The notes beneath the pieces are model-generated. The model was not told where the DNA came from and made no database searches. It saw nothing but the letters and a program-made list of their open reading frames with translations. The position numbers were made by a program, and so were the translations under genes. Positions 12,176 to 35,429 of a stretch of 39,790 bases of DNA are shown here, one piece after another (within the stretch, counting starts at the first letter, position 1; every line of letters begins with the position of its first letter). The stretch is from Planctomycetota bacterium. GTDB lineage: Bacteria > Planctomycetota > SZUA-567 > H5-PLA8. Location: assembly GCA_026692735.1 (NCBI GenBank), contig JAPLOD010000149.1, positions 1 to 39,790 of the forward strand. Reading direction: 5' to 3'.

Positions 12176-13015
12176 TCAATCTCTGCCGGATTCAAGCACG
12201 AGTATTCGCGCGGATTCAGCCGGAACTGCGATGGTCGTCTGAGCGCCTGCGGTGACGGCACCCAGGTCTTCGATCCCGCCGGTCTCCGGATTCCACAAGG
12301 AGACCTGGCCGGGTGCGGGGACCGTCATCCAACCTTGGGCCGGAGTCTTGCCGGGGTTGGCGATCAGTATGATCCGGCGACCGGGCTCTTGCCGCTGCAG
12401 GAGTCGGACGCCTTCAGGACCGTCCCACGCGACGGGGTTGGGAACCCGGGCGTTCAGCCAGTTCGTGAGCGGCGTCAGCTTCCCGATCTGTTCCACGTGA
12501 AGGGTTCGCTGCGGGAACTCAGCCAGCAAGGATTTTGCCGCTTGCGTGATGGTCGTGTCCGTCCCTTGGCCCGGCGTTCGGAACGGCAGCGAACCAACGA
12601 TGGCTGCATAACTGCCGGCCTCGACAAAGGAGCGCACGGCCGCCAGTGTCTTGGGATGGAGCATCCGGGGCTCGGGCAGAATCAAGACGCGAAAAGCCTC
12701 CGGACCGACGTGCAGCCGGCCATCCCGGACCAGACCCTGTTGCAGGAATTGCTCACTGATCGTATCGAAGTCGCGTTGCCGACGGAGGAGTTCGTGGCAG
12801 GTGTCGCGGAAGATGCTGTCGATCCGCATGGCGTCCGGATTGCGCTGGATGTAGCGACCGAAGGTGGCGCCGTCGGGAGGCGTGTAGGCGACCCAGACGG
12901 ACGCCTCCGGCACCAACACGGCAACATCCGCCACGTGCGATCCGCGGCGGCAGAGCACTCCCCAACGCCCGGCGAAGTCGGAGAAGGCGGCGTAGAGTCC
13001 CAGCTTGAACCGCGT
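12176..13015 (-). pseudogene. Glycosyl hydrolase, C-terminal part only (GH106-like)
   Basis: The - strand ORF ends at 12176 and stays open well upstream, but recognisable sequence begins only near 13015 (FKLGLYAAFSDFAGRW). It continues with GSHVADVAVLVPEASVW, DFDTISEQFLQQG, FRVLILPEPRMLHPKTL and a closing beta-domain ending in ESARILVLESGRD. This order (HVADVAVLxP, DFDxI, LVLPxxxxL) is that of the region after the catalytic domain in large rhamnosidase-like glycosyl hydrolases (GH106 and relatives, usually ~900-1100 aa). The catalytic part is missing and no plausible start or ribosome-binding site precedes the fragment. I call it a decayed gene; translation from an internal start into a stand-alone domain cannot be excluded. 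Confidence 0.6.
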
Positions 13016-16345: not shown

Positions 16346-17281
16346 TTATATCGGGCAGGCCGCCGCCAGCCGGCGTATCCCCTCGGGGAATGGAACGCGT
16401 GGTACGTACCCGAGCAGTTCGCGCGCGCGGGAGATGTCTGCGAGCGAATGCGCCACATCTCCAGCTCGCGGCGGGCCGTATGTCGGCGTGAGACTGGTTC
16501 CAAGCGCATCATTCAGCGCCGCGACCAGGGCATTGAGTGAACTGCGCTCGCCGCAGCCGACGTTTATCGCCTGCCCGTTCAGCGGGCCGCGCACGCGCAT
16601 GGCCAGCAGATTGGCGTGGACGACGTTCACGACGTAGGTGAAATCGCGCGTCTGCTCGCCGTCGCCGTGGATGTGCGGCGCTTGGCCCTGACGCATCAGC
16701 TTCAGGAACAGCGCGATCACAGCGGAATAGGGGCTGTCGGGGTCCTGGCGTGGACCGAAGATGTTGAAGTACCGCAGACAGACCCCGTCCAGCCCGCGGC
16801 AGTGAGCGTACGCGCGCACGTAGTATTCACACGCCAGCTTGCTTGCGGCATACGGACTCATGGGCGCGGGCGGCATTGTCTCCGCGCGTGGCAATCCCGG
16901 CGCGTCTCCGTAGGCGCTTGATGAAGCCGCATACATGATGCGTTTCACGCCCTGTGCCGCGCAGGCATCCAGCAGGCGTAGAGTGGCGATCTCGCCCGCA
17001 CGCTGGGTGGAGAAAGGGTCCTTGACGGAACGCGGGACGCTCGGGATGGCGGCCTGATGGAAGACGTATTCGACGTCCCGGCAGGCCGCCAGCGCGATGT
17101 CAGGATCGCCCACGTCGCCTTCCAGCAGCGAGATGCGAGCAAGGCAGTGCGCCAGGTTGTCGCGCGAACCGGTGCTGAAGTTGTCCACGACGCGGACCGC
17201 GTGGCCTTGTGCCAGCAGCGCGTCCACCAAATGGGAGCCGATGAAACCGGCGCCACCTGTTACGAGAACAGCGTTACCCAT
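16346..17281 (-). CDS. NAD-dependent sugar epimerase/dehydratase (UDP-glucose 4-epimerase-like)
   Basis: A 311-aa short-chain dehydrogenase of the extended type. GGAGFIGSH near residue 9 binds NAD, YAASK carries the catalytic Tyr and Lys, and YFNIFGPRQDP and DFTYVVNVV are signature stretches of the GalE/WbpP group. It would make or interconvert a nucleotide sugar for the glycosyltransferases of the cluster; 4-epimerase is most likely but specificity is not visible. GGAGG lies 5 nt before ATG 17281 in a purine-rich leader. A truncated, mutated copy of its 5' end lies upstream at 18231-18380. Confidence 0.88.
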   Translation of the reverse strand: MGNAVLVTGGAGFIGSHLVDALLAQGHAVRVVDNFSTGSRDNLAHCLARISLLEGDVGDPDIALAACRDVEYVFHQAAIPSVPRSVKDPFSTQRAGEIATLRLLDACAAQGVKRIMYAASSSAYGDAPGLPRAETMPPAPMSPYAASKLACEYYVRAYAHCRGLDGVCLRYFNIFGPRQDPDSPYSAVIALFLKLMRQGQAPHIHGDGEQTRDFTYVVNVVHANLLAMRVRGPLNGQAINVGCGERSSLNALVAALNDALGTSLTPTYGPPRAGDVAHSLADISRARELLGYVPRVPFPEGIRRLAAACPI

Positions 17282-17449
17282 TCCTTCCTCCCCCTATATA
17301 AGGGGCCGCGAGAGTACCGGGAAAATGTGAATCAGCCAATGGGTAGGGCCTCTTTTTTCGCATCCACCAGCGTCTGCAGTTCCGAAGCGGCCACGTGTGG
17401 GTGAGGCTATCCGCGGGCCGGCCACGTGACTTCAGGCAGCGCGCCGGAC

Positions 17450-18163
17450 TCAGGTGTTCTTGGCGTAACCACAGATGATATTGACCCGCAGGAACTCGAG
17501 CAGTCCGGTGGAATTCACGAGGCGTTCGTACAGTGTCCCGCACAGGAAGGCCGGAACACACCATTTGAGGTAGTTGGGTTCGACTTCTATTGTCTTGAAT
17601 AGGACCTGCTCAAACCCGCGGGAAAGAAAACACCGGTTAAGGGCACGCTTGGTGTTTAGTTGGTAAACTGTAGAAAACGTGTCCTCATCACACCGTCCCC
17701 TTTTTCGGTTGAACCAACGGTGAAAGGCGTGCGGAGTGCAGGAGGCGACTAAGGATACGTAATGGTATCGGTTTGGCGTCAGGGCCAGAAAGCGTCCGCC
17801 GGGCTTTATGATGCGATGAAGCTCAGTGACGAACGCGGCAGGGCTGGTGACATGCTCAAGGGTATATATAGAGAACGCGACGTCAAAGGAATTGCCATCG
17901 AAGGGAGTGTCCATCATGTTCCCGACGACGCCTCTGTCGAGGAGCGGGTTCTCGAGGACACGCGGGTCCAAGTCTATCCCGACCACTTCAGCGCATTTGC
18001 CGCGCAGGGCGTAGGTATTGGCCTTTCCGGCGCCGGCGCCAATATCGAGCACGCGGCTATCCGGTTTCACATGCCGGTATAGCTCCTCGCTAAACACTGC
18101 CGCGGGGTTCTTGGCCCGCTGGGGGGGGTAGAGACGCTCTTGCCACCATCGCACAGTCAGCAT
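17450..18163 (-). CDS. Class I SAM-dependent methyltransferase
   Basis: A 237-aa methyltransferase. Motif I is VLDIGAGAGKANTY, the acidic strand-2 end is GIDLDPRVL, motif II is FSIYTLEHVTSP and motif III is IIKPGGRFLALTPN. The C-terminal ~80 residues (YQLNTKRALNRCFLSRGF, YLKWCVPAFLCGTLYERLV) resemble those of methyltransferases from surface-polysaccharide clusters. ATG 18163 is chosen because AAGGG precedes it and the sequence further upstream does not look coding, although the frame stays open to 18301. It probably methylates a sugar or the chain end of the polymer. The epimerase gene follows after 168 bp. Confidence 0.82.
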   Translation of the reverse strand: MLTVRWWQERLYPPQRAKNPAAVFSEELYRHVKPDSRVLDIGAGAGKANTYALRGKCAEVVGIDLDPRVLENPLLDRGVVGNMMDTPFDGNSFDVAFSIYTLEHVTSPAAFVTELHRIIKPGGRFLALTPNRYHYVSLVASCTPHAFHRWFNRKRGRCDEDTFSTVYQLNTKRALNRCFLSRGFEQVLFKTIEVEPNYLKWCVPAFLCGTLYERLVNSTGLLEFLRVNIICGYAKNT

Positions 18164-18230
18164 TGGGTGTTTCCCTTTGGAGATGGGGAGGAAGAGGGCG
18201 CTTGGGTTGCGGCGGCCTGCCCCGGGTTCT

Positions 18231-18380
18231 CTATTGCGGGAGGTGCCTCCACCCAGCGTTGCAGCACGGACTGGGGCACGAGCCGGTGAGGCGGAGCGCA
18301 TGGCCTTCGGTCAACAGCGCATGCATAAAATGGGAGCGGATGAAGCCGGCACCACCTGTTACCAAGACAGCAGTGCCCAT
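18231..18380 (-). pseudogene. Truncated duplicate of the sugar epimerase 5' end
   Basis: From ATG 18380 the - strand reads MGTAVLVTGGAGFIRSHFMH then ALLTEGHALRL, closely matching the first 31 residues of the intact epimerase (start 17281). Homology then stops and a TAG follows at 18231-18233. The dinucleotide-binding motif is damaged (GGAGFIR instead of GGAGFIG). By eye about three quarters or more of the first 90 bases match the intact gene, so this is a homologous 5' end and not chance. Confidence 0.75.
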
Positions 18381-18438
18381 TGTGGTGCTATCCCCTTCAA
18401 AGAGAGCGGCACTGTCTACACGGAAGCGGCGCGCTACC

Positions 18439-18579
18439 TCAGCATGTGAATCCCGACTGCTGGGAAACCGCTGCGTCGTCTCCGAGCCCGCACCCGATAT
18501 CGAGCAAGCGCCTTTCGTCGCCGGGAAGATGCTTTGTCACCTGTGCCACGACGTGTGCGATCTTCAGCATCTTCCCCAT
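18439..18579 (-). pseudogene. Methyltransferase N-terminal remnant
   Basis: From about 18579 the - strand reads MGKMLKIAHVVAQVTKHLPG then DERRLLDIGCGLGDDAAV and stops at 18439. LLDIGCGxGD is motif I of a class I SAM methyltransferase; everything after the first strand is gone. It is not a copy of the intact methyltransferase at 17450-18163, whose N-terminus differs. The frame stays open upstream to 18897, inside the GT2 gene, but that part does not look coding. Confidence 0.6.
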
Positions 18580-18739
18580 GCTCACGTAGCCGGGGAAAGG
18601 CGCTGGCCACCTGCTTTTTGGGTGGCTCCCTGAATGACAAGGAACCAACCGACGGCAGAAGGCACCAAGTGGCGCAAGCAGAGCGGCAAGTACCGTTCCG
18701 CCCGCACAGCGAAGCGCAAGGCAGAAGCGGAAGTTCCAA

Positions 18740-19741
18740 TCAGAGCCATGAATGCTCATTGCCGTGATCCGTCTTCTGTTGATCATCGCACCCGACGAGC
18801 ATGGCAAATGCAAACACGTACCGATACAAAAGGGGACAATACAGCCACGGCACGCCGTCGGTCCACTTGAGAAAGCTGCGGAGGGGCGAAGCAACAAAGC
18901 GATTAACGGCTAACCGCCAGAAGCCCTTTGCCAGCTTGAGTTGCCAGGCATCCGTCCCTTCGACAGGCTGTAGAAACCGCATCCAAGACTCATTAAGGAA
19001 CTCAGGAGCGAGTGTTGCGAGAAGTGGAAGACTGTATCGCGTCATCGTGTAACACTTGCGCTCAAAACCGGCAATGGGATCTTCTTGATTCGAGTCCTCG
19101 TAGTGAAATGCTACGGCACTCTCCAAATACTCCGCATGGATTCCGGTGTTCTTCAGACGCCATGCAAACTCGTGATCCTCGCAGCCGTAACGACGGAACT
19201 GCTCGTTCATGAAACCAAGCGGCTCAATCTCGGGCTTTTTCAAGGAGAGATTCATAACGACGAGCATGCGAGGGGGAAGATCCCTTGGGTCAATGCCGCA
19301 ACGCGCCGGACCAAGATGGCGCGAATCCCGGAACCGTACATAGTTGCTCTTTTGCACACGATCTGGCGGAAAACGGACTTGGCCACAGAACACAACGCTC
19401 CTCCGCCCATGATGTGCATCCACGTGAGCCTGGATGAACTCGCAGCATACCCGGAGATCATCATCAAGCAGGACAATTAGCGGCGCATGAGTGTATCTAA
19501 ACATTGCGTTCCGCTTTGCGGCTAACGTATTCGCTGCAATGTTCAGATATACAATGTTGCCGAACTGTCTGGCCTGTTCTCGCACCATTTCGTCTGTTCC
19601 GTCTCCACTATTGCTGTCGCACACCAGAATCTCGTAGCAGTCGCGCGGGACCGTCTGGCGCTCAAGCGAGCCGAGTAGATCTTGTAGGAGAGCTCTGCGC
19701 CTCCACGTCGGAATCTGCACGGACACGACAAGGTTACTCAT
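18740..19741 (-). CDS. GT2 family glycosyltransferase
   Basis: A 333-aa GT-A fold transferase. It starts VQIPTWRRRALLQDLLGSL and has CDSNSGDGTDEMV, the metal-binding LLDDDLR in place of DxD, NLSLKK, and GCEDHEFAWRLKNTG, the family ED-xxx-RL acceptor/base motif. The C-terminal ~80 residues include a hydrophobic stretch (YCPLLYRYVFAFAMLV) that could bind the membrane. ATG 19741 overlaps the polymerase stop as ATGA, so translation is probably coupled. It would add a sugar to the lipid-linked repeat unit. Confidence 0.88.
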   Translation of the reverse strand: MSNLVVSVQIPTWRRRALLQDLLGSLERQTVPRDCYEILVCDSNSGDGTDEMVREQARQFGNIVYLNIAANTLAAKRNAMFRYTHAPLIVLLDDDLRVCCEFIQAHVDAHHGRRSVVFCGQVRFPPDRVQKSNYVRFRDSRHLGPARCGIDPRDLPPRMLVVMNLSLKKPEIEPLGFMNEQFRRYGCEDHEFAWRLKNTGIHAEYLESAVAFHYEDSNQEDPIAGFERKCYTMTRYSLPLLATLAPEFLNESWMRFLQPVEGTDAWQLKLAKGFWRLAVNRFVASPLRSFLKWTDGVPWLYCPLLYRYVFAFAMLVGCDDQQKTDHGNEHSWL

Positions 19742-21078
19742 TTGTTTCGAATGCAAGACAATCTGGCCGCCCGTTTGTGATACCACCCCATGGCGAGCCC
19801 AATCGACATGTAGAACACCGTTGATTCGTTGGGCTGAATCAGCATACCGCTATTTCCAAGGCAATTCACATACACCACTACCAGCATTGCGAGTATAGTA
19901 TCCACGTTGTTCTGCATCATCTCGTTGTGGGTGTGGTGCGCCAATGTGGCGAGTGTCCAGAACGCGCGAAATAACTGCACCTGCAGTGCGATCAGGAGTA
20001 GCGCGAACAGAAACCCGCCCGCAAAGAGCACATCGCCATAGGTAGTGTGGGCCATCGTGTACTGTGGCAACCCGACCGTGCCTGCAAGGCCACGCGCGCC
20101 CGCGCCAAATAGCACAGACATGGGCCCGTTCTCTTCGAGCATCTGTGGTACGTAATTCGAGAGCCGATCGGACATGCTCGCCGACAGGGACGGGTCGTCC
20201 ACTGTGGCGGGCCTGCTGATGACATCATCTCCGGCGATTTTGCTGAGGAGGTACTCACCATGATGCCCAAAGCGTTCATCGGCGACCGTTAGATAAGCGA
20301 TGATCAATAGTATGAAGCCAAACGTAAGTAGTAGTCGGGACGCGCGTTGTGTGACACGTTGGCGACTGAAGAGCAAGTAGACGAAAGGGACAAGAAGAAG
20401 GTTGACGACGGCCGCCTTTTGCAGGGAGCAGAGCAGCCCAAGGCAAATCGCGCATGCTAGAGTGAGGCGAAGCAAAACGTGCATATGAAGCATCAATACG
20501 GCGATAAGGCCAATGGCGCCGACTATGCCAACGGCTGTGAGATTGCCGAAGAGCGAGGCATACCGCTCGAGGCTGGCGCGAGCGGACGCTTCGTGGAACC
20601 ACGAGATCGGAGCGAACACGAGTTGGAAGGGAACAGACAGGCAGCCAACGGCAACGAGAGTAATGTATGTCAACAGAAGAACACGTACGTGCGACTCTTT
20701 GTTGACTGACGCCATTACGACCAGCGCAAACGGCAACGTGAACCAAAGCCTGGGCACAGCAATAAGCACTTCGTCAAGCTCCACCCAGAATGGCGATATC
20801 GTGGTAACGTATACCGTCGCGAAAAGGTAGAGATAATAGAGTCTGCGAACGTCAGGCAGGAGGCCTCCAGTGGCGTTTGGGGTTCGTGCGAATGGGAAGA
20901 CAGATGTCTGGCATAATGCAGCGGAGAACAGATACAAGGCTAGGGGCGCGCCCAAGTAGATGCTGGAAAGGTTCCGCAGGGTGTGAAGGTTAAGCACGAC
21001 AAGGAGCAACAGCGCGACGATAAAGGGCAGCCGATCACCCCCGTGAGCGGGGTGATCGTCGCTGTTGTTTGTATACAC
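19738..21078 (-). CDS. Polysaccharide polymerase/ligase (Wzy/O-antigen-ligase-like)
   Basis: A polytopic membrane protein of 446 aa with about ten hydrophobic segments and one large periplasmic loop in the second half (FGHHGEYLLSKIAGDD to VLFGAGARGL). That layout is shared by Wzy polymerases and WaaL-type ligases; the AHTTYGDVLFAGGF stretch after the loop resembles the HNxxL-type region of the superfamily. GTG 21078 lies 7 nt after GAGGAGG, which itself overlaps the stop of the upstream methyltransferase gene. It would join flipped repeat units in the periplasm. Sequence is weakly conserved in this family, so the call rests on topology and context. Confidence 0.75.
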   Translation of the reverse strand: MYTNNSDDHPAHGGDRLPFIVALLLLVVLNLHTLRNLSSIYLGAPLALYLFSAALCQTSVFPFARTPNATGGLLPDVRRLYYLYLFATVYVTTISPFWVELDEVLIAVPRLWFTLPFALVVMASVNKESHVRVLLLTYITLVAVGCLSVPFQLVFAPISWFHEASARASLERYASLFGNLTAVGIVGAIGLIAVLMLHMHVLLRLTLACAICLGLLCSLQKAAVVNLLLVPFVYLLFSRQRVTQRASRLLLTFGFILLIIAYLTVADERFGHHGEYLLSKIAGDDVISRPATVDDPSLSASMSDRLSNYVPQMLEENGPMSVLFGAGARGLAGTVGLPQYTMAHTTYGDVLFAGGFLFALLLIALQVQLFRAFWTLATLAHHTHNEMMQNNVDTILAMLVVVYVNCLGNSGMLIQPNESTVFYMSIGLAMGWYHKRAARLSCIRNK

Positions 21079-21081
21079 CAA

Positions 21082-21093
21082 GCAACCTCCTCA
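21082..21093 (-). promoter_or_regulatory. Ribosome-binding site overlapping the upstream stop codon
   Basis: The - strand reads TGAGGAGG: the TGA of the methyltransferase gene is part of the Shine-Dalgarno sequence of the polymerase gene. A ribosome ending the first gene could start the second directly. This favours GTG 21078 as the start over TTG 21081. Confidence 0.6.
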
Positions 21094-21726
21094 GTTCTTC
21101 AGAGTTGCCGTCACAATTAAGCCTTCGCGAATGCGGGCCGAGGCGACCATGGAAAAGAGACGTACACAGCCGGATGCAAGTCGCATCACATGCGACTCGG
21201 CGGGTACGCTGTAATAGCTTACGGCGTCCACCTTCCATCCTGTCCGGCTTAGGAGCTGCGAAAGCGTCTGCGTACTGAAGAGAACGGTGTGATCCGGATG
21301 GCATTCCTCTCTGCCGAACACTGCTCGAAGGGCACTTTTCAACGATTGCGCATTGTTTGTCGTAATGATGAATTGCGTGGTTGGCGATGCCCACTGGGAT
21401 ACACACCGCAGCAATTGACCGGGGTTTTCGAGGTGCTCGATGATCTCGGATGCGACAACAACGTCAAAGCATTCATCTGGCCGGAAGGTGCAAGCGTCGG
21501 CGAGAATTAGGGGCCACGCAGGGTTATGCGCCTGCATCGCATGTATGCCGAGAGCGGAGATGTCAACGCCAACGAGGTAGCTTGAAACGGCTGCAATCTG
21601 GGAATGCAGCAATTCGCCCGCATTGAGTTTGTCTTGTGTAAATGGCCAGTCCGTGCAGCCAAGGTGCAGCACCTTCTTGCCGCGACATGCAGCGACAACG
21701 GCGACCTTTCTTTCCTCAATCCTCAT
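21091..21726 (-). CDS. Class I SAM-dependent methyltransferase of the polysaccharide cluster
   Basis: A 211-aa methyltransferase with motif I VLHLGCTDWPF, an acidic GVDISALGI end of strand 2, ADACTFRPDECFDVVVASEI and the motif II tail EIIEHLENPGQLL. The remainder (LFSTQTLSQLLSRTGWKV) fits sugar O-methyltransferases of cell-surface clusters. ATG 21726 has a weak GGAG upstream. It sits between the flippase and the polymerase, 24 bp after the flippase stop, and probably methylates a nucleotide sugar or a growing unit. Confidence 0.82.
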   Translation of the reverse strand: MRIEERKVAVVAACRGKKVLHLGCTDWPFTQDKLNAGELLHSQIAAVSSYLVGVDISALGIHAMQAHNPAWPLILADACTFRPDECFDVVVASEIIEHLENPGQLLRCVSQWASPTTQFIITTNNAQSLKSALRAVFGREECHPDHTVLFSTQTLSQLLSRTGWKVDAVSYYSVPAESHVMRLASGCVRLFSMVASARIREGLIVTATLKN

Positions 21727-21750
21727 CTGGATCCGGGATCTCCGAATGGG

Positions 21751-23244
21751 TTAAAGGCGGCTCCTAAGCTCACTAACCAGACGTATCATAAACGTGTATG
21801 CGAGGATACTGTAGACGCATCCAAAGACGACAATTGTGGCCCCTAGCTGAACGGCTGGCGAATGTGCTGAAACGGGCCGGAGCGCCGCCCAACCAGCCAA
21901 ACCGCTCAGAGCGACGCACAGGAACGGGCGGGCGATGGTCGTAGCCAACGCTAGGATTCCTTGCCCGTACTCGCTGAAAGCCGCCCAGCCATACAACAGG
22001 CCGCTGATGAACATGGCGCAAGCCACGTTGCGCGCGACCAGCGCAGCGCTGCCTTCGTGCGCTCCCAATATGGCCGCCGTCGCCACCGCCGCTGCTTGAA
22101 TAGCTCCGAGCAACGCAACGAAGCCATAGCGGCCGCGGGCCATCAGTAGCGCTGAAGACACTATGACGATGGGTTGGGTGAGCATGCCGAAGCTGAGCCA
22201 GGAGACAACCGCCGCTGCCTGCAGCCAGCGATCATGAAACACCAGATCCAATGCCGGATAGGCTGTTACCATCTGCAGCACACAAAGGGGCGCCAGCGCG
22301 GCCAAGATCGTCATGATGCTCTGCCTGAATGCTGCAAACTGGCGCTCAGATTCCTGCGTAAGCCTCGCCAAAGCGGGAAACAAGACCTGCTGAAGGTTCG
22401 CTGAAAGGAGGTATGCCGCTTGGGAGGCCAGCCCGAGACCCCAGGCGTATAGTCCTGCTTGCGTCGGCCCGCAGTGTATCCCAAGCACAAAACTGGCGAC
22501 GTTCGAGTAGATTGCAGCAAAGAGCCCGGTCAGCATCAGCCAGGCTGCGGGCCCAAGCAACGCTGGCCATTCCCGCAGGTGAGGCTTGCCCAAGGGTATC
22601 CTGCCAGCCGCCAAACGCATTCCAAGAACTCCCGTAAGGCGACGTGCGACAGGCGCGAAGGCAAGCGCGTATGCGCCGCATCCGCGCCACGCTAAAACCG
22701 CCGCTGTGCCGGTATGAGCCATTCCCATAAGCAGACAGACCAGTGCGAGCGGCTTAAAGCGAAGCTCCTGCTTCAACCTGGCGACGTAGACCGTCATGGC
22801 TCCGTCGCAGGGCCAGCAAAGGGCTTCAATCACAATGAACGGAACCACGCGCGCGTCGTGGAAGATGGCTCCCCCCAGCGGCGAGATCAACGCCACCGCC
22901 GCCGCGCCGAAAGTGGAAGCGGACAAGGATAGCCAGAAGACTTGTGGCGCGTCCTCACGGAAGCGGCTATGCCGTTGAACCAGGACATCGCTCAGCCCCC
23001 CCAGTGTCAGTAGATTGCCGATTGCCGTGAATGAGCAGGCCATGGCGATCAGCCCGAAGTCGTCAGGGACCAGGAACCACGCCAGAACGATCTGCCCAAT
23101 GACCGTGAGCACTTTATTGGCGGTGGCCATGCCCACCGTCCACGCAGCACCGGTCACAGCGTGCATGCCGACTGGCGGTGCCGGGGCGGCTCGCGGGAAA
23201 TCGCCTGTAGTTTCGCTCAACGGTTCAACCAACTGCTGCTTCAT
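21751..23244 (-). CDS. Polysaccharide flippase (Wzx/MOP superfamily)
   Basis: A membrane protein of 497 aa with about 12-14 hydrophobic segments. It begins with AVTGAAWTVGMATANKVL and YxxPDDFGLIAMA-like sequence (VPDDFGLIAMACSF), the N-terminal signature of the lipopolysaccharide-translocase branch of the MOP exporters. The middle has GLYAWGLGLASQAAYLLSAN and LFPALARLTQE, typical of this branch. It should move the undecaprenyl-linked repeat unit to the periplasmic side. ATG 23244 is chosen; TTG 23259 is the alternative. The start overlaps by 20 bp the tail of a truncated flippase-like ORF (23225-23443). Confidence 0.88.
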   Translation of the reverse strand: MKQQLVEPLSETTGDFPRAAPAPPVGMHAVTGAAWTVGMATANKVLTVIGQIVLAWFLVPDDFGLIAMACSFTAIGNLLTLGGLSDVLVQRHSRFREDAPQVFWLSLSASTFGAAAVALISPLGGAIFHDARVVPFIVIEALCWPCDGAMTVYVARLKQELRFKPLALVCLLMGMAHTGTAAVLAWRGCGAYALAFAPVARRLTGVLGMRLAAGRIPLGKPHLREWPALLGPAAWLMLTGLFAAIYSNVASFVLGIHCGPTQAGLYAWGLGLASQAAYLLSANLQQVLFPALARLTQESERQFAAFRQSIMTILAALAPLCVLQMVTAYPALDLVFHDRWLQAAAVVSWLSFGMLTQPIVIVSSALLMARGRYGFVALLGAIQAAAVATAAILGAHEGSAALVARNVACAMFISGLLYGWAAFSEYGQGILALATTIARPFLCVALSGLAGWAALRPVSAHSPAVQLGATIVVFGCVYSILAYTFMIRLVSELRSRL

Positions 23245-23443
23245 GTGCTGCAGGTGCAACTAAAGTGCTCCCGTCGTGGTGAGCGGCCGGTCCGGTCGGC
23301 ATACTGGAACGAAATCCCATCCGTTCTAGCGACCAGAAGGCGCCACGTGCCAAACGGTAGCCCAGGGGCGAGGCTTCAATGCGCGCTGCATAGCGCTTCA
23401 GTGGCGGAGGCAGAAGCGTGTAGAGTACGGTCTTGACGCTCAC
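23225..23443 (-). pseudogene. Truncated N-terminus of a second flippase-like gene
   Basis: From GTG 23443 (GGAAG 7 nt before) the ORF reads VKTVLYTLLPPPLKRYAARI then GYRLARGAFWSL, after which it turns to unrelated sequence and stops at 23225. RLARGAFWSL is the usual lead-in to the first helix of Wzx-type flippases. The ORF breaks just where the first helix should start, and the full flippase gene begins there in another frame. It reads as the left-over 5' end of a flippase gene that was replaced. Translation of a short leader peptide that couples to the flippase is another possibility. Confidence 0.55.
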
Positions 23444-23456
23444 GCGTGGTCTTCCG

Positions 23457-25058
23457 TTATCGCGAAGTCCTGGGGCCTTTGTCGTCGCTGCGCCAGAGCA
23501 GCAGCGCGGGGCGCGAGACGGGGCCGGCTTCGACTGGGGCGCTTAGCTGGGAGCGGCCGGCCTTGGGGTAGAGCTGCTCAGCGCGCCCGAGCGCCCGATG
23601 CATGAACTCGGACATGAGCACACGGTACTCCACGTCAATGTCCTCTTCGCGGGCGGTCGGTTCGAACGTCCATTCGGCGCTAGTGCCAGGACATAGCTCG
23701 GTTCTATCGGAGAACCCGGCGGATCCCGCCGTGCCGGATTCGGCGAGCTGCTCGCTGTCGCCGGTCTGCGGCTCTCGTCGCCACGAGAACTCGTGCTTCC
23801 CGGCCTGGCCGTCCGTTGTGGCCACAGTCAGCGACATGCACTGTACGCCGAGTTCGGAACAGGTCTGTGCCAGAAGCGCATGCAGGTCGGCAACAGACTC
23901 TGCCATGTCCAGTTTGATCCTCTGCATGGCGATGAAGTGGTTAACAAGAAGGAAATGCGGCCGCGTTGTCTTGATGACCGAGGAACGGAAGTCGTCGAGC
24001 ACGCCGCAGAAATGCAGCCCAACACCGACTGTCAGGGCACTGGCCACCAGGAACCATACGGCGGCACCACGGGACTGGACCAGGTAGTAGATGACGGCGC
24101 CTCCCGCCAGCAGGGACACGAAGACTGCGGCGAAGCAGATGTACGGAGGCGTCCAGCCCTGATCTATGAGGCGGTGGTGGATGTGGCCCCTGTCTGCGCT
24201 GCCGATGGGTTTGCCACGCAGCAGGCGGCGCGCGACGGTCAGGAGGATCTCCAGAACCGGATACGCCGCGACGAGAGTCACAAGTGCCATCTGGTAGTAG
24301 AATGGTTCACTGCTCCGCCGGCCCAGCCCAAAACTGCAGTCCTGGCCCAGGCTGACCAAGGACGTGGCAACGAGCATGCCCAGAGCGAGGCTGCCAGCGT
24401 CTCCCATGTAGATTCGTGCCGGGTGCCAGTTGAACCAAAGATAGGCGGCCAGTGCCCCTCCCGCCGCGAGGACAACCGCGACCACGACCGTGTCGTTGAA
24501 GCAGTTCGCTAGTAGGCCCGCAATGACGCAGATGACCAGCACCACCGAAGCGGCCAACCCGTCCACACCGTCTATGAAGTTTACGGCATTGACGATCATC
24601 AGGATCCACAGGACCGTCAGAGGCGGGCCCAGAAGCAATAGATCCACTGTCTGTATGCCGGGGAGTCGGAGCGCCTGGAATCTGTACCCGAACGCCACGA
24701 ATGCCACGGCGATGAGGAATTGTCCTGCCAGCTTATAGCGCGGGCGCAGCAGGAACTTGTCGTCGGCCAGGCCAAGCACGGCGGCGAGCGTGGCGGCGCC
24801 AATGACAAGCAGGGCCTTCTTTGTCTCCACATAGTGGAGGGTCGGAGACAGCAGCAGGAAAACGCCCGCTCCACCGGCGAACCCCAGGAGTATCGCCACG
24901 CCGCCAAGGAACGGCACAGGCTCGTTGTGTATCTTCCGGTGCGTGGGCCTGTCAATCATGTCCAGGCGGCGAGCCAGAAGCATCATGATGGGAACGAGGG
25001 CCAGCGTCAGCACAAGGCTCGCACCGCCCGCCAGCCACGTGGCCGTGTACGTGCTCAA
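23457..25058 (-). CDS. Undecaprenyl-phosphate sugar-1-phosphate transferase (WecA/MraY type) with cytoplasmic tail
   Basis: A 533-aa integral membrane enzyme that starts repeat-unit synthesis by moving a HexNAc-1-phosphate (GlcNAc in WecA) from UDP to undecaprenyl phosphate. Family motifs are in order: HRKIHNEPVPFLGGVAI, GLADDKFLLRPRYKL (DDxxxL), NAVNFIDGVDGLA, GDAGSLALG and the HIHHRL motif typical of the WecA branch. About 11 membrane segments take up the first ~360 residues. A further ~170 residues are soluble (MAESVADLHALLAQTCSELG onward, regulatory-like), an extension absent from the short WecA form. The start is TTG 25058: GGAGAGG lies 5 nt before it and it overlaps the upstream stop as TTGA; no ATG or GTG fits. 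Confidence 0.85.
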   Translation of the reverse strand: MSTYTATWLAGGASLVLTLALVPIMMLLARRLDMIDRPTHRKIHNEPVPFLGGVAILLGFAGGAGVFLLLSPTLHYVETKKALLVIGAATLAAVLGLADDKFLLRPRYKLAGQFLIAVAFVAFGYRFQALRLPGIQTVDLLLLGPPLTVLWILMIVNAVNFIDGVDGLAASVVLVICVIAGLLANCFNDTVVVAVVLAAGGALAAYLWFNWHPARIYMGDAGSLALGMLVATSLVSLGQDCSFGLGRRSSEPFYYQMALVTLVAAYPVLEILLTVARRLLRGKPIGSADRGHIHHRLIDQGWTPPYICFAAVFVSLLAGGAVIYYLVQSRGAAVWFLVASALTVGVGLHFCGVLDDFRSSVIKTTRPHFLLVNHFIAMQRIKLDMAESVADLHALLAQTCSELGVQCMSLTVATTDGQAGKHEFSWRREPQTGDSEQLAESGTAGSAGFSDRTELCPGTSAEWTFEPTAREEDIDVEYRVLMSEFMHRALGRAEQLYPKAGRSQLSAPVEAGPVSRPALLLWRSDDKGPRTSR

Positions 25059-25429: not shown

Positions 25430-26011
25430 CTACAGGATGGGCTCTACGAAGGCTTCATCAATGGCCAACTCGGCGGCCTTCCCCAGGAAGGTAATCTGGA
25501 CCACCAACTGGCTGTGGGCGCCGTACCGAACGAGCTTGCCGTAAAGGCCTTTCAGCACGCCACGCGCGACCCAGACGGGGCGTCCGGGCTCGCCGAAGAT
25601 TGTCTCGCGCATGGTCTGGTCGTGCTGAAGGGCAAGCGCCAGGTTATTGAGCTCGCGCCAAAGCTGCGCGGGGTCGGGCGGAGTGAGTATCTGGGCGACT
25701 CTGCGCGACGCGAACACTCGTTCCGGTGAGAGCGGCAGCGAATCGTAGAACACATACCCGGAGAAAAGGGGAACCTCGTAATCACGCACGCGGCGGCCGT
25801 ACACGTGGCGACGGGTGACCAATGGCAGAAAAGAGCCCACGTTGTGCAGGTTAAGGAACTCGACCAGGCGTTTCTCACAGCGCGGCTTCGTGTGAGCGAC
25901 GACCCATGAAGCAACCAGGGACGGCGTGCCGCTGTTCAGACTGGGAACTGGAGTTTCTGTGAGTGCCATCTCAAACTCCGTCCCCGTCACGTCCCGGGCG
26001 TGCTGGATCAT
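25430..26011 (-). CDS. NusG/RfaH-family transcription antiterminator of the polysaccharide operon
   Basis: A 193-aa specialised NusG paralogue. The NGN domain starts with SWVVAHTKPRCEKRLVEFL, the family's WYVxxTKPRxE signature, followed by FLPLVTRRHVYGRRVRDYEV and PLFSGYVF (the PLFpGYvF motif). The C-terminal KOW-type part is PVWVARGVLKGLYGKLVRYG. Proteins of this kind (RfaH, LoaP, UpxY) bind RNA polymerase and let it pass terminators in long polysaccharide operons, which fits its place as first gene of a ~12.6-kb operon. Two starts are possible: ATG 26011 with GAAGAG upstream, or ATG 25969 with GGAG 6 nt before. I found no ops-like GGCGGTAG motif in the leader. Confidence 0.87.
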   Translation of the reverse strand: MIQHARDVTGTEFEMALTETPVPSLNSGTPSLVASWVVAHTKPRCEKRLVEFLNLHNVGSFLPLVTRRHVYGRRVRDYEVPLFSGYVFYDSLPLSPERVFASRRVAQILTPPDPAQLWRELNNLALALQHDQTMRETIFGEPGRPVWVARGVLKGLYGKLVRYGAHSQLVVQITFLGKAAELAIDEAFVEPIL

Positions 26012-30052: not shown

Positions 30053-30242
30053 AGCGGCGTGGATAGTGGATCGGAGACGACGGACGGGAGAGGGCATCCG
30101 CGGGACATGAGATGCCGATTCCGTGGTAACCCCACAGGCCGCACTCTGGTACTCACAAACAGCCCGAAAATGCAGTCTGGGCCATGCCACGTCGCTGTTC
30201 GGTGTGGGGGCGATTCATTCCTTGGCACTGCGGTGGCCGCGC

Positions 30243-30262
30243 GCTAAGCACGGTGCTTTAGC
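30243..30262. promoter_or_regulatory. Imperfect palindrome before the surface-protein gene
   Basis: GCTAAGCAC-G-GTGCTTTAGC is an inverted repeat with one bulged base, 8 nt upstream of the AGGAGG ribosome-binding site. It could be an operator. The single-base centre makes an RNA hairpin of full length unlikely. Confidence 0.3.
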
Positions 30263-30284
30263 TTTGTACCAGGAGGTGTTTGTC

Positions 30285-33200
30285 ATGCTGCGCAATGTGA
30301 ACAGGATCCACTGGGGTCTGGCGGTCGGGCTGGCGGTGCTGGTGGCGATCGCGCCGGCAACGGCAGGGGCACTAGACACGCTCGCGATCACCCTCGGCGT
30401 CGGCGACAGTGATGTCACCGTCACCGTGACGGGATCGAACAGCTTCACGGTGACTGGTGTTGCCCCCGTCACGATCACCGGCACAAACGTCGGCGTATTG
30501 ACCATTACCGGCGATGGCGGCCCCAACAAGCTGACCGTTGACTTCAGTACGAACATGTTCGCGGGTGTCATTAACTTCAACGGTGGTGCCGGGAACAATA
30601 CGCTGGTCATTAAAGGGTCGTTCACGACCGCCACCTGCAACTACACCAATGCCCATGACGGAAACATCAATCTCGACGGCACGGTGGTCAGCTACCTCGG
30701 CCTGTCGCCGGTCAACATCGGCAGTGCGGCAGACGTGATCTTCAACCTGCCTGCTGCGCCGTCCGGGCCGAGCGACGCCATCCTCGAAGATGACGGCACA
30801 CCCGGCGATGGCGTTTGGCGGCTGCGCAGTAACCCTGTCACCTTCGAACAGACCGACTTCAACGCCACGAATTCAGTCACGATCAACCGCGGCGACCCCG
30901 CCGACACGCTGACTATTAACGCCCCGGCGGACTTCAACGTGGGGTTGACGGTGGGCAGCGGGGCTTCGCTTGCCACGGTGACGGTCAACAATCCGCTGAC
31001 TCTGAATGCCGGCGCGGGCAACCTGGCGGTTGACGCGGGGGCCATCAACCTGAACGCCGACGTGAGCACGAGCGCAACCCAGGCGTACAACGGCCCGGTG
31101 ACGCTGGGCGCGAACGCGAACCTGACCGGCACGACGGCGACGTTCAACAGCACGGTGGATGGCGCGCACACGCTGACGGTGACGGGGAATGCGGTCTTCA
31201 ACGGGATAGTGGGGACCACGGCGCTCAGTTCGCTGCAGGTCACGGGCACGACGAACATCAACACGACGGCCGTCACGACGAGCACCACGCAGCGGTACGA
31301 CGGCGCGGTGACGCTGGCCAGCAGCACGGTACTGACGGGCACGACTTCAGTGAGCTTCAACGGGAACATTGTGGGCGGCGGCTTTGACCTGACGGTTAAC
31401 TCGCCGGCGACGGCGTTCGGCAACGCGGGGGGTGACAGCGTGACGGGCGTCGGGACGTTGACGACGGACGCCGCGGGCGCGACCACGATCACGGCGGGCA
31501 CGGTCAGCGGCGTGGTGCTGACGTTTAACGACGATGTGACGCTGGGGGCGAACACAATCCTGACGGGAACAACTTCGGTGAGCTTCAAGGGGAACATTGT
31601 GGGTGGCGGGAACAACCTGACGGTGGACTCGCCGGCGACGGCGTTCGGCGACTTGGCGGCTGACAGCGTGACGGGCGTCGGGACGTTGACGACGGACGCC
31701 GCGGGCGCGACCACGATCACGGCGGGCACGGTCAGCGGCGTGGTGCTGACGTTCAACGACAATGTGACGTTGGGCGCGAGCGCGACGCTGACGCACACGG
31801 GCGCCAACTCGCTGACCATCAGCGGGACGCTGACCACAGGCGGCAACACGTTAACCGACTACGCCGCAGCGCCGGCCAGCACCAGCGGCACGATCTCCGG
31901 GCAGATCGCGGGTGCTGGCGGGTTGACCAAGGACGGTCCCGGCACGCTGCTACTGACGAATAGCAGCCCTGGCTACACCGGCTCGACCACTGTCACTGCA
32001 GGTACGCTGCAGGTTCAAGCGACGGCATCCATCGCCAGCAGCGCCGTCACCGTGGACAGCAACGGCACGCTGAGCGGGACAGGGGCCACGGGCGCGATCT
32101 TTGTTACGGCACCGAATACGGGCACGGTGAGCCCCGGCAGCCCCGCGAACACAGCGGGGATGCTGACGTGCGGCGGGGTCTCTTTCGGCGACAACAATGC
32201 GACGTTCGTCGTGCAGCTCTTCGGCACGGCCACCTATGATCAACTCAATGTGACGGCGGGGGGGACGGTCAATCTGAACGGCTGCACACTGAACGTGTCG
32301 GTTATCGGCGGCTTTCTCCCCGTGGTTGGCAGCCAGTTCACGATCATTAACAACGTGGCTGCTGGCCTGATAGGGGGTACCTTCAATTCACTGCCGGACA
32401 ACGCTACATTCACGGCCAGCGGATACGGATTCCGGATCACGTATACGGGCGTCGGCAATCACGTGGTACTGACATGTACGCAGGGGGCGTTCGTCTGGAC
32501 CGGCCAGGGCGTCGACGGCGGCGGCAACCCCGATCCCAACTGGACGATAGGGAACAACTGGCAGGGCGGCGTTCCGCCGAATCCTGGCGCGAATCTGGTC
32601 TTTGGCGCTGGTGCGCTGCAGAAGACGACCTGCAACAATGATTACGCGGACCTCACAGCGTTCAACTCGATCAACTTCGAGGATAACGGGTATACCATAA
32701 GCGGCGTTAACAGGGTGACTCTCGGGGCTGGCGGCATCTTCACAACCGCGGCAGCAACGGGCGCGAACACGTTGGGTGTGCCGCTGGTCATTCCGGCGGC
32801 GTGCCCGGTCACGACGACTGCCGGCACACTGACGTTGAGCGGTGTTGTAAGCGGCGCGGGCGGCCTGACAAAGGGCGGCACCGGCACCCTGGTCCTCAGT
32901 GGCAACAACAGCTACGGCGGCGTCACGTCGGTCAACGCGGGTATCCTGAACATCCAGAACAGCAACGCGCTGGGGGCGACGGGCGCCGGCGCTGACACGA
33001 CCGTGGCGAACACCGGGACGCTGCAATTGCAGGGCGGCATTGCCGTGGCCAACGAAGTGCTGACGCTGAACGGAACAGGCGCGGCCGGGAACGGCGCGCT
33101 GGATAACGCCGGCGGGAACAACTCGTGGGCCGCGCAGGTCACGCTTAACGCCGGCTGTTCGGTCGGGTCGGCTGCCGGCACGCTGACGGTGAGCGGGCAG

Positions 33201-35429
33201 GTAACCGGAGCCACCGACCTGATCAAGGCGGGCGCCGGGACGTTGGTCCTGAGCAATGGAACGAATAATTACACGGGCGCCACCATTGTTAACGGCGGCA
33301 CACTGTCCGATGGCGCCGCCAACGCAATCCCGGCGGGCAGCGCACTGACGGTGGCCGGAGGCGCCACCTTCGACCTCAACGGCATCAACCTGACGGTGCC
33401 CAGTGTCACGGGCGCGGGCACGGTGACAAACAACGGCGCAGCAGCGACGTTCACCGTGAACAACGCGGCAGCGGACACGTTCGACGGGGTGCTGGCGGGC
33501 GGGGCGAACCTGAACGTGACGGCGAATGGGACCGCCGCGCTGACACTGACGGGCACGAGTGCCGGCTATAGCGGCACGACGACGATCGTCAGTGGAGCCA
33601 CCTTGGTCGTGACCGGTTCGATCGCCAACAGCACCGTGGAGGTCCAGACGGGTGGGACGCTGAGAGGCACGGGCACGGTGGGGCAGATCAACTGCGCCGG
33701 GACCGTCGCGCCGGGCACGGCGGCGGCTGTCGGGACGCTGAACTGCAGCGGCGCGAGCTTCACGACCGGAACGCTGCTGGTCCGGATACCGGATGCGGGG
33801 GCCGGCGCGACCGATACCGGCAGGACCACGGTAGACAGGCTGATCGCCAGCGGCGATATGAGCTTTGGGTCGGGTTCTCACCTGGCGGTGAACCTGAACG
33901 GAGCGCCAGCGTCGTGCTCGAACACGCAAGTGGCTCACGCCGGCGGCACGGTCACGGGCACATTCGGGGCGCTCGATGTCACCAATAACGCGACGGGCAA
34001 GGACGTGACGACCGAGTACCTGCCGGAGGGTGCTCCGCAGGACGTCATCGTGCACGTGAATATCGCGCCGACCGGCGACCTGAAAGTTGATTTTGACCCG
34101 ATCGGCTTTGACGTGCAGCAGGGGTTCCATGCGACGGTCACCGATAAGGACGGGAACACGCTGACGTACACGTGGAATTTCGGCGAGCCGCCGAATTTCC
34201 TGGACTCGACTGACAGCAGCACTAACGCGCCTGACACCACATACAGCTATTCCAGTACTAACGTGCCGTACTACACCTTCGATGCGGCCGGGCTGACCAC
34301 CGTCACGGCAACGGTGACGATAACGGACGGTTTCGGCGGGAAACTGGTCAAGACGGTGACCTTTACCCTCTTTAACCCGTTGGGCAACGAACAGAACGTG
34401 GCCAATGACCTGAACGAGACGGACCCGACCAATGGCGTGACCATCCTGACCAAGGGCAAGCAGGGCGTCATGAAGATTGACGTTGTGCAGGTCTACGACC
34501 CCGTCACGCAGGCGGCGGTCAACACGCGGCCCACGGGCACCACAACTATGCTCACAGGGCCGAACGGCATCACCGGCCCGGCGGGGACGCCGCTGTGGCA
34601 GACGGACAAGCCCACGTTCTATTACGTGTTCCTTCCTCCCGCGGGCCCTGGTCCTGGAGTCTACCTGATCACGGTTCTTGACAGTGCCGGGAAGCCGCTG
34701 GCTCGCAAGATGCTCAACATCACGGAGGCGGAACTGGACCCCACGGGCAAGGCGGTGCGGCGCAATGCGACCTTCAGCAACAAGGATAGCTTCATCACGG
34801 GCAGGTTCTCCTTCAAGGACAGCAGGCAGGATCAGGTGAAGTTCCTGGGGAAGTTCCCCCTGGAGAAGGAGTACAAGGATCCGGCCACGGGCAACATGGT
34901 GCCGACGCTTGCCCCCACAGTGCCGCACCTGTTTACCGTCGGCATTGGCAACATTATCGGCAACGCGACAATGCAGTTGACGGCGAATGGGCGGGGAACG
35001 CTGAACGGCAGGGGACCTTTGACGAGCGTCTACGATGCACAGCAGGCGCTGCGGACTGACGCCGTCACGCGGGTCAAGTTCAGATACGACCCGGGCACGG
35101 CTGTAGCCATTCTGGATGTGATGCTCCGTCTCAAGAACATGTCGAAGGCCGGGTTCGACACCGAGGGCGTGATCGCGACGTATGGCAAGGTGGGAACGGC
35201 AACCCAGCGGGTCACTGTCTATGACCCGAATGTGTACACTGATGCGCAGGGAACGGCGCGCCCGCAAGGCGTCCGCACGCTGGGTGTGAGCGAGCTGACG
35301 CCGTTGGCCATCCAGATATCGCTGCTGATTGACAATAACATCTCGTACTACTCGCTGATTCCATCGGGCTTCCTTGTGAGGAATGGCGTCGGCCAGATCG
35401 TAGGTCACAAGACGTCTCGCACGAAGTAG
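30285..35429 (+). CDS. Large secreted surface protein with autotransporter-associated beta-strand repeats
   Basis: A 1714-aa exported protein. AGGAGG at 30271-30276 fixes ATG 30285 (8-nt spacing). A signal peptide spans residues 1-28 (LAVGLAVLVAIAPATAG). Residues 342-493 are two nearly identical 76-aa units. Passenger-type repeats follow: GAGGLTKDGPGTLLLT near 543, GAGGLTKGGTGTLVLSG near 857, GATDLIKAGAGTLVLS near 975 and a weaker unit near 1072. They match the autotransporter-associated beta-strand repeat that builds beta-helices. Near 752 the NW-rich NPDPNWTIGNNWQGGVPP occurs. About 1260-1364 is a PKD-like domain (DGNTLTYTWNFGEPP). The last ~350 residues are unassigned and show no type V beta-barrel, so export of the passenger must use another route. 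Thr, Gly and Asn are very abundant. The gene ends in a strong hairpin. Confidence 0.82.
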   Translation: MLRNVNRIHWGLAVGLAVLVAIAPATAGALDTLAITLGVGDSDVTVTVTGSNSFTVTGVAPVTITGTNVGVLTITGDGGPNKLTVDFSTNMFAGVINFNGGAGNNTLVIKGSFTTATCNYTNAHDGNINLDGTVVSYLGLSPVNIGSAADVIFNLPAAPSGPSDAILEDDGTPGDGVWRLRSNPVTFEQTDFNATNSVTINRGDPADTLTINAPADFNVGLTVGSGASLATVTVNNPLTLNAGAGNLAVDAGAINLNADVSTSATQAYNGPVTLGANANLTGTTATFNSTVDGAHTLTVTGNAVFNGIVGTTALSSLQVTGTTNINTTAVTTSTTQRYDGAVTLASSTVLTGTTSVSFNGNIVGGGFDLTVNSPATAFGNAGGDSVTGVGTLTTDAAGATTITAGTVSGVVLTFNDDVTLGANTILTGTTSVSFKGNIVGGGNNLTVDSPATAFGDLAADSVTGVGTLTTDAAGATTITAGTVSGVVLTFNDNVTLGASATLTHTGANSLTISGTLTTGGNTLTDYAAAPASTSGTISGQIAGAGGLTKDGPGTLLLTNSSPGYTGSTTVTAGTLQVQATASIASSAVTVDSNGTLSGTGATGAIFVTAPNTGTVSPGSPANTAGMLTCGGVSFGDNNATFVVQLFGTATYDQLNVTAGGTVNLNGCTLNVSVIGGFLPVVGSQFTIINNVAAGLIGGTFNSLPDNATFTASGYGFRITYTGVGNHVVLTCTQGAFVWTGQGVDGGGNPDPNWTIGNNWQGGVPPNPGANLVFGAGALQKTTCNNDYADLTAFNSINFEDNGYTISGVNRVTLGAGGIFTTAAATGANTLGVPLVIPAACPVTTTAGTLTLSGVVSGAGGLTKGGTGTLVLSGNNSYGGVTSVNAGILNIQNSNALGATGAGADTTVANTGTLQLQGGIAVANEVLTLNGTGAAGNGALDNAGGNNSWAAQVTLNAGCSVGSAAGTLTVSGQVTGATDLIKAGAGTLVLSNGTNNYTGATIVNGGTLSDGAANAIPAGSALTVAGGATFDLNGINLTVPSVTGAGTVTNNGAAATFTVNNAAADTFDGVLAGGANLNVTANGTAALTLTGTSAGYSGTTTIVSGATLVVTGSIANSTVEVQTGGTLRGTGTVGQINCAGTVAPGTAAAVGTLNCSGASFTTGTLLVRIPDAGAGATDTGRTTVDRLIASGDMSFGSGSHLAVNLNGAPASCSNTQVAHAGGTVTGTFGALDVTNNATGKDVTTEYLPEGAPQDVIVHVNIAPTGDLKVDFDPIGFDVQQGFHATVTDKDGNTLTYTWNFGEPPNFLDSTDSSTNAPDTTYSYSSTNVPYYTFDAAGLTTVTATVTITDGFGGKLVKTVTFTLFNPLGNEQNVANDLNETDPTNGVTILTKGKQGVMKIDVVQVYDPVTQAAVNTRPTGTTTMLTGPNGITGPAGTPLWQTDKPTFYYVFLPPAGPGPGVYLITVLDSAGKPLARKMLNITEAELDPTGKAVRRNATFSNKDSFITGRFSFKDSRQDQVKFLGKFPLEKEYKDPATGNMVPTLAPTVPHLFTVGIGNIIGNATMQLTANGRGTLNGRGPLTSVYDAQQALRTDAVTRVKFRYDPGTAVAILDVMLRLKNMSKAGFDTEGVIATYGKVGTATQRVTVYDPNVYTDAQGTARPQGVRTLGVSELTPLAIQISLLIDNNISYYSLIPSGFLVRNGVGQIVGHKTSRTK
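31308..31763 (+). repeat. Two tandem 228-bp in-frame repeats
   Basis: Copies span 31308-31535 and 31536-31763, with the first part of a third after 31764. A run of about 90 bases (31433-31525 and 31661-31753) is almost or fully identical. The unit is 76 codons, so changes in copy number keep the frame. Confidence 0.88.

Follow-up and report, generated by a model that had tools for sequence, protein, structure and literature searches.

Why does a polysaccharide biosynthesis operon in a member of the Planctomycetota contain three short 5′ gene ends, each shortly upstream of a complete gene of the same class? The window, i.e. the whole stretch of DNA that was analyzed (39,790 nucleotides), is one entire contig of a 9.1-Mb metagenome-like assembly of 1014 contigs (completeness 86%, contamination 3.6%); the best named matches of the epimerase point to the Planctomycetota as the probable phylum. 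The operon lies on the minus strand and is a polysaccharide biosynthesis cluster, with WecA-like, flippase, glycosyltransferase, epimerase, methyltransferase and UpxY genes. The features considered here, in operon order, are as follows.

25430-26011, minus strand: UpxY/RfaH-like antiterminator of the NusG family, first gene of the operon
23457-25058, minus strand: WecA-like glycosyl-1-phosphate transferase, the constant head of the operon, with a long C-terminal extension
23225-23443, minus strand: flippase stub, an ORF of 72 codons with a GTG start, of which about 23443-23327 is homologous to MOP flippases
21751-23244, minus strand: intact flippase (PF13440/PF01943), ATG start without a clear Shine-Dalgarno (SD) sequence
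21091-21726, minus strand: methyltransferase MT2, low GC3
19738-21081, minus strand: putative polymerase-like (Wzy-like) membrane protein, judged from position and hydrophobic sequence
18740-19786, minus strand: GT2 glycosyltransferase, low GC3
18580-18739, minus strand: stretch from GT2 to the methyltransferase stub, non-coding or decayed, GC content 0.62, unlike that of GT2 (0.54)
18439-18579, minus strand: methyltransferase stub with motif I (LLDIGCGLGDDA), 46 codons and TGA, class I by Pfam
18288-18380, minus strand: epimerase stub, first 31 codons, 78% DNA identity to the start of the intact epimerase gene, Pfam match
18164-18287, minus strand: unassigned DNA that separates the epimerase stub from the intact methyltransferase gene, no match to epimerase C-termini
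17450-18163, minus strand: intact class I methyltransferase (MT)
16346-17281, minus strand: intact NAD-dependent sugar epimerase/dehydratase

On the minus strand, the order is thus WecA, flippase stub, flippase, MT2, Wzy-like protein, GT2, methyltransferase stub, epimerase stub, MT and epimerase, and genes for a WcaI-like glycosyltransferase and a radical SAM protein lie 3′ of the epimerase gene. No Pfam or NCBIfam family matched the Wzy-like protein. Polysaccharide operons headed by UpxY/RfaH are known, as in the capsule loci of Bacteroides, and here too a NusG-like antiterminator comes first; it matches NF033644 (E = 7e-16, under the curated cut-off). Unlike those operons, this one has a second gene of 118 aa that matched no Pfam or NCBIfam family, and only one UpxY gene of this kind was found in the genome. 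The C-terminal extension of the WecA-like protein lies outside the transferase domain, and open frames of >500 codons also occur in several of its relatives in the phylum.

The evidence for truncation is most direct for the epimerase stub. Positions 18380-18288 align with the start of the intact epimerase gene (17281-17189), which lies 1.1 kb downstream, at 78.5% DNA identity over 93 bases (blastn, E ~1e-16), and the match begins exactly at the start codon. An SD-like GAAGGGG precedes the ATG, the Pfam Epimerase profile matches (E = 0.0004), the third glycine of GxxGxxG is replaced by arginine, and the frame stays open to position 18231. Among the sequences collected for comparison, none was closer to the stub than the intact epimerase. 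Across the 31 codons, the mismatches at codon positions 1, 2 and 3 number 9, 1 and 10, respectively, and this pattern indicates that the stub and the intact gene were separate genes that diverged while coding constraint acted on both. An origin by recent partial duplication followed by decay is contrary to this pattern. After the divergence, the stub lost a dinucleotide-binding glycine and its reading frame past codon 31.

The flippase stub begins 13 nt past the WecA stop codon, with GGAAG preceding the GTG, and its frame terminates 20 nt within the intact flippase gene. About 39-40 codons (to approximately position 23327) match the N-termini of MOP flippases, and 33 unrelated codons follow. 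In a search of other genomes of the phylum, the first 40 residues matched only the N-termini of flippases of 450-509 aa (E = 1.7e-7 and 2.5e-6, plus a weaker match at 0.0075), and two of these full-length relatives were recognized as Polysacc_synt proteins by a Pfam scan. When full-length flippase homologues were compared with the window by tblastn, the sole significant match was approximately 23443-23327 (E = 1.8e-6 and 1.6e-5). No DNA or protein similarity between the stub and the intact flippase was detectable by BLAST, and the full-length relatives of the stub did not pair with the intact flippase by blastp. Since only 23446-23327 was matched by tblastn and blastp gave no such pairing, the old flippase was of another lineage, and only its start is left in this operon. 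In genome G295, a flippase of the stub type lies two genes behind a WecA gene.

The methyltransferase stub is the weakest of the three. It matches Methyltransf_23 (E = 0.0019), several NCBIfam methyltransferase families match at the corresponding place, and 22 further genomes of the phylum contain matches at E ≤ 0.01, almost all of which fall in the N-terminal or motif-I portion of a longer frame. Frames of 235-249 aa were seen for relatives in the phylum whose motif is of the GCGLGDDAE or GCGLGEDAE type. The DNA that the stub shares with the intact MT gene is confined to 36 nt of motif I (72% identity). The assignment to a methyltransferase gene is consistent and moderately supported.

Thus, the stubs can be described as truncated homologues of full-length genes, clearly so for the flippase and the epimerase, where the matches are far beyond chance, and moderately so for the methyltransferase. 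For each, the operon also contains an intact gene of that class, and these intact genes probably share the functions of the old ones. These results confirm the observation in the original prediction, which had reported three broken 5′ ends standing before full-length genes of the same class: its coordinates (flippase ORF 23225-23443, methyltransferase stub 18579-18439 and epimerase frame to 18231) are correct, the classes agree at the family level, and the methyltransferase and epimerase stubs do precede an intact methyltransferase-epimerase pair in the same order, with the methyltransferase stub the less certain member (Pfam E = 0.002). The DNA homology claimed for the epimerase piece was found as well, and it is the only such pair of the three. 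Matches to a flippase, a methyltransferase and an epimerase were obtained for the respective remnants in profile and homology searches, that for the methyltransferase being weaker. The alternative that the remnants are conserved small ORFs of identical length in many genomes disagrees with the data, in that the matches to the flippase and methyltransferase stubs lie in longer frames (454-509 aa for the clear flippase matches), and none of 80 other named loci with a related full-length epimerase contained a piece restricted to the epimerase N-terminus. The latter result also indicates that the epimerase stub is not a conserved element.

We further analyzed the DNA around the stubs. Each stub breaks off 90-140 bases into the gene, and 58-124 bases of unassigned DNA follow before the new start. 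The possibility that 18164-18287 represents the old epimerase 3′ end, left by an internal deletion, was rejected, as its three frames matched 79 epimerase C-termini no better than shuffled sequences did. Continuation of the methyltransferase stub as far as the epimerase stub, in a different frame, was likewise no better than shuffles and gave no Pfam hit. No convincing short repeats flanked the breaks, and of the old genes, nothing but 5′ pieces was recognized in the window. As a control, 31-residue pieces taken along most of the epimerase length would be recognized in most of the 80 loci; the survival of 5′ ends only is therefore not simply a matter of the detection limit, at least for the epimerase. 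Full copies of the flippase stub and of the 571-bp stub region were searched for elsewhere in the same genome, and none was found. In the same-family genomes G001 and G005, a UpxY gene at 55-60% identity is followed by epimerase-methyltransferase or unrelated genes. The nearest WecA relatives have approximately 43% identity, and no close relative was present in the searched genome contigs.

Nucleotide composition divides the operon. GC3 is 0.76-0.84 for UpxY, the 118-aa ORF, WecA, the epimerase, the WcaI-like glycosyltransferase and the radical SAM protein, and 0.60-0.69 for the flippase, MT2, the Wzy-like protein, GT2 and MT (0.60-0.66 for MT2, the Wzy-like protein and GT2 at 18740-21726). 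A low-GC3 block thus sits between an operon head and tail of host-like composition, with the flippase stub at its left edge and the methyltransferase and epimerase stubs inside it, between GT2 and MT. The stretch with the latter two stubs has a GC content of 0.58-0.67, again above that of GT2. Part of the GC3 contrast could reflect the composition of membrane or variable genes.

The reading that we favor, with a probability of roughly 0.7, is that the three stubs are the 5′ ends of older polysaccharide genes, left after replacement by genes of the same class and subsequent deletion. The variable middle of a Wzx/Wzy-type cluster would have been rebuilt with genes from elsewhere, and the old flippase, methyltransferase and epimerase genes, now redundant, would then have been cut down by deletions. 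The old genes presumably once worked in this locus, the new ones probably took over their roles, and the breaks seem to have been made by deletion rather than by a single crossover. However, all three remnants are 5′ ends, which random deletion does not explain, although three of three is a small number.

A route that would yield 5′ ends was part of the original prediction, which attributed the pattern to modular swapping by recombination at conserved gene starts: a crossover within the old 5′ end would leave the old start in place with the new gene behind it. The replacement of genes by others of the same class stands as the best reading, but the proposed crossover is unsupported and, in our view, unlikely. 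In its favor, the two epimerase sequences share 93 bases, and the classes and their order repeat; yet the flippase stub and the intact flippase lack DNA homology, and the methyltransferase pair shares just the motif-I segment. Moreover, a crossover in a shared start would create a hybrid gene, whereas here a stub, 58-124 bases of unassigned DNA and a second complete start come one after another. Crossing-over in conserved starts does not fit these two observations. It is quite unlikely that the stubs are instead retained as short leader ORFs, on which ribosomes would load so that translation is coupled to the new genes. The survival of 5′ ends alone would suit such a role, as would the start codon and SD-like site of the flippase stub, whose frame ends just inside a flippase gene without a clear SD sequence, and the good SD-like site of the epimerase stub. 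Against this, the MT gene that follows the epimerase stub is provided with its own AAAGGG, and the frame of this stub ends approximately 68 nt ahead of the gene, the methyltransferase stub overlaps nothing, and such stubs are not conserved in the 80 epimerase loci.

A related idea, that gene starts and ribosome-binding sites are selectively kept upon replacement, because they would serve translational coupling and hold the operon open to the antiterminator, we consider very unlikely; if it were true, 5′ stubs should occur regularly in clusters of this type within the lineage. Least probable of all is an assembly artefact in which reads from two strains, differing in their clusters, were merged in a metagenome bin. 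The number of contigs, the completeness and the contamination given above are those of an assembly in which misjoins may occur, but several independent ones would be needed, each with a gene start set, within one operon and in the matching orientation, before a gene of its own class, and the flippase stub occupies a normal operon position directly behind WecA.

Replacement followed by deletion, our preferred reading, has a parallel in Salmonella enterica, in which O-antigen groups B1 and D1 contain wzy remnants: once another wzy had taken over, the older copies were degraded by successive deletions. Genes with parallel roles there occupy the same cluster position (PMC3715488). In both cases, partial, non-functional copies of polysaccharide genes are left beside a successor that has, or here probably has, the same function. 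In Salmonella, sister serogroups supply the full-length parent, and remnants of IS or H-repeats are located close by in some cases and are not required; here, no mobile element was noticed, and the remnants comprise three stubs of three gene classes, all of them 5′ ends. The remnants are thus of a kind already described for the O-antigen clusters of other bacteria, and what is new is the place, namely this lineage. The polysaccharide cluster of a poorly studied bacterium with a large genome carries replacement scars like those of enteric O-antigen clusters, and these scars suggest that the surface polymer has probably changed. The established view of how such clusters evolve is unchanged.

Several further observations were made. 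The leader of the intact epimerase gene (17282-17310, minus strand) contains CCCCTTATATAGGGGGAGGAAG, a possible hairpin beside the ribosome-binding site, and a related epimerase gene in genome G002 has a similar, TATATA-containing leader. The match of an ORF at 12176-12958 (minus strand) to the GH106 alpha-L-rhamnosidase profile is confined to the last quarter of the profile (positions 557-739 of 743), and the ORF may be either a stand-alone domain or another gene remnant, in that case a 3′ end. The ORF at 30123-35429 (plus strand, 1768 aa) contains passenger-associated-transport repeats (PATR) and is autotransporter-like.
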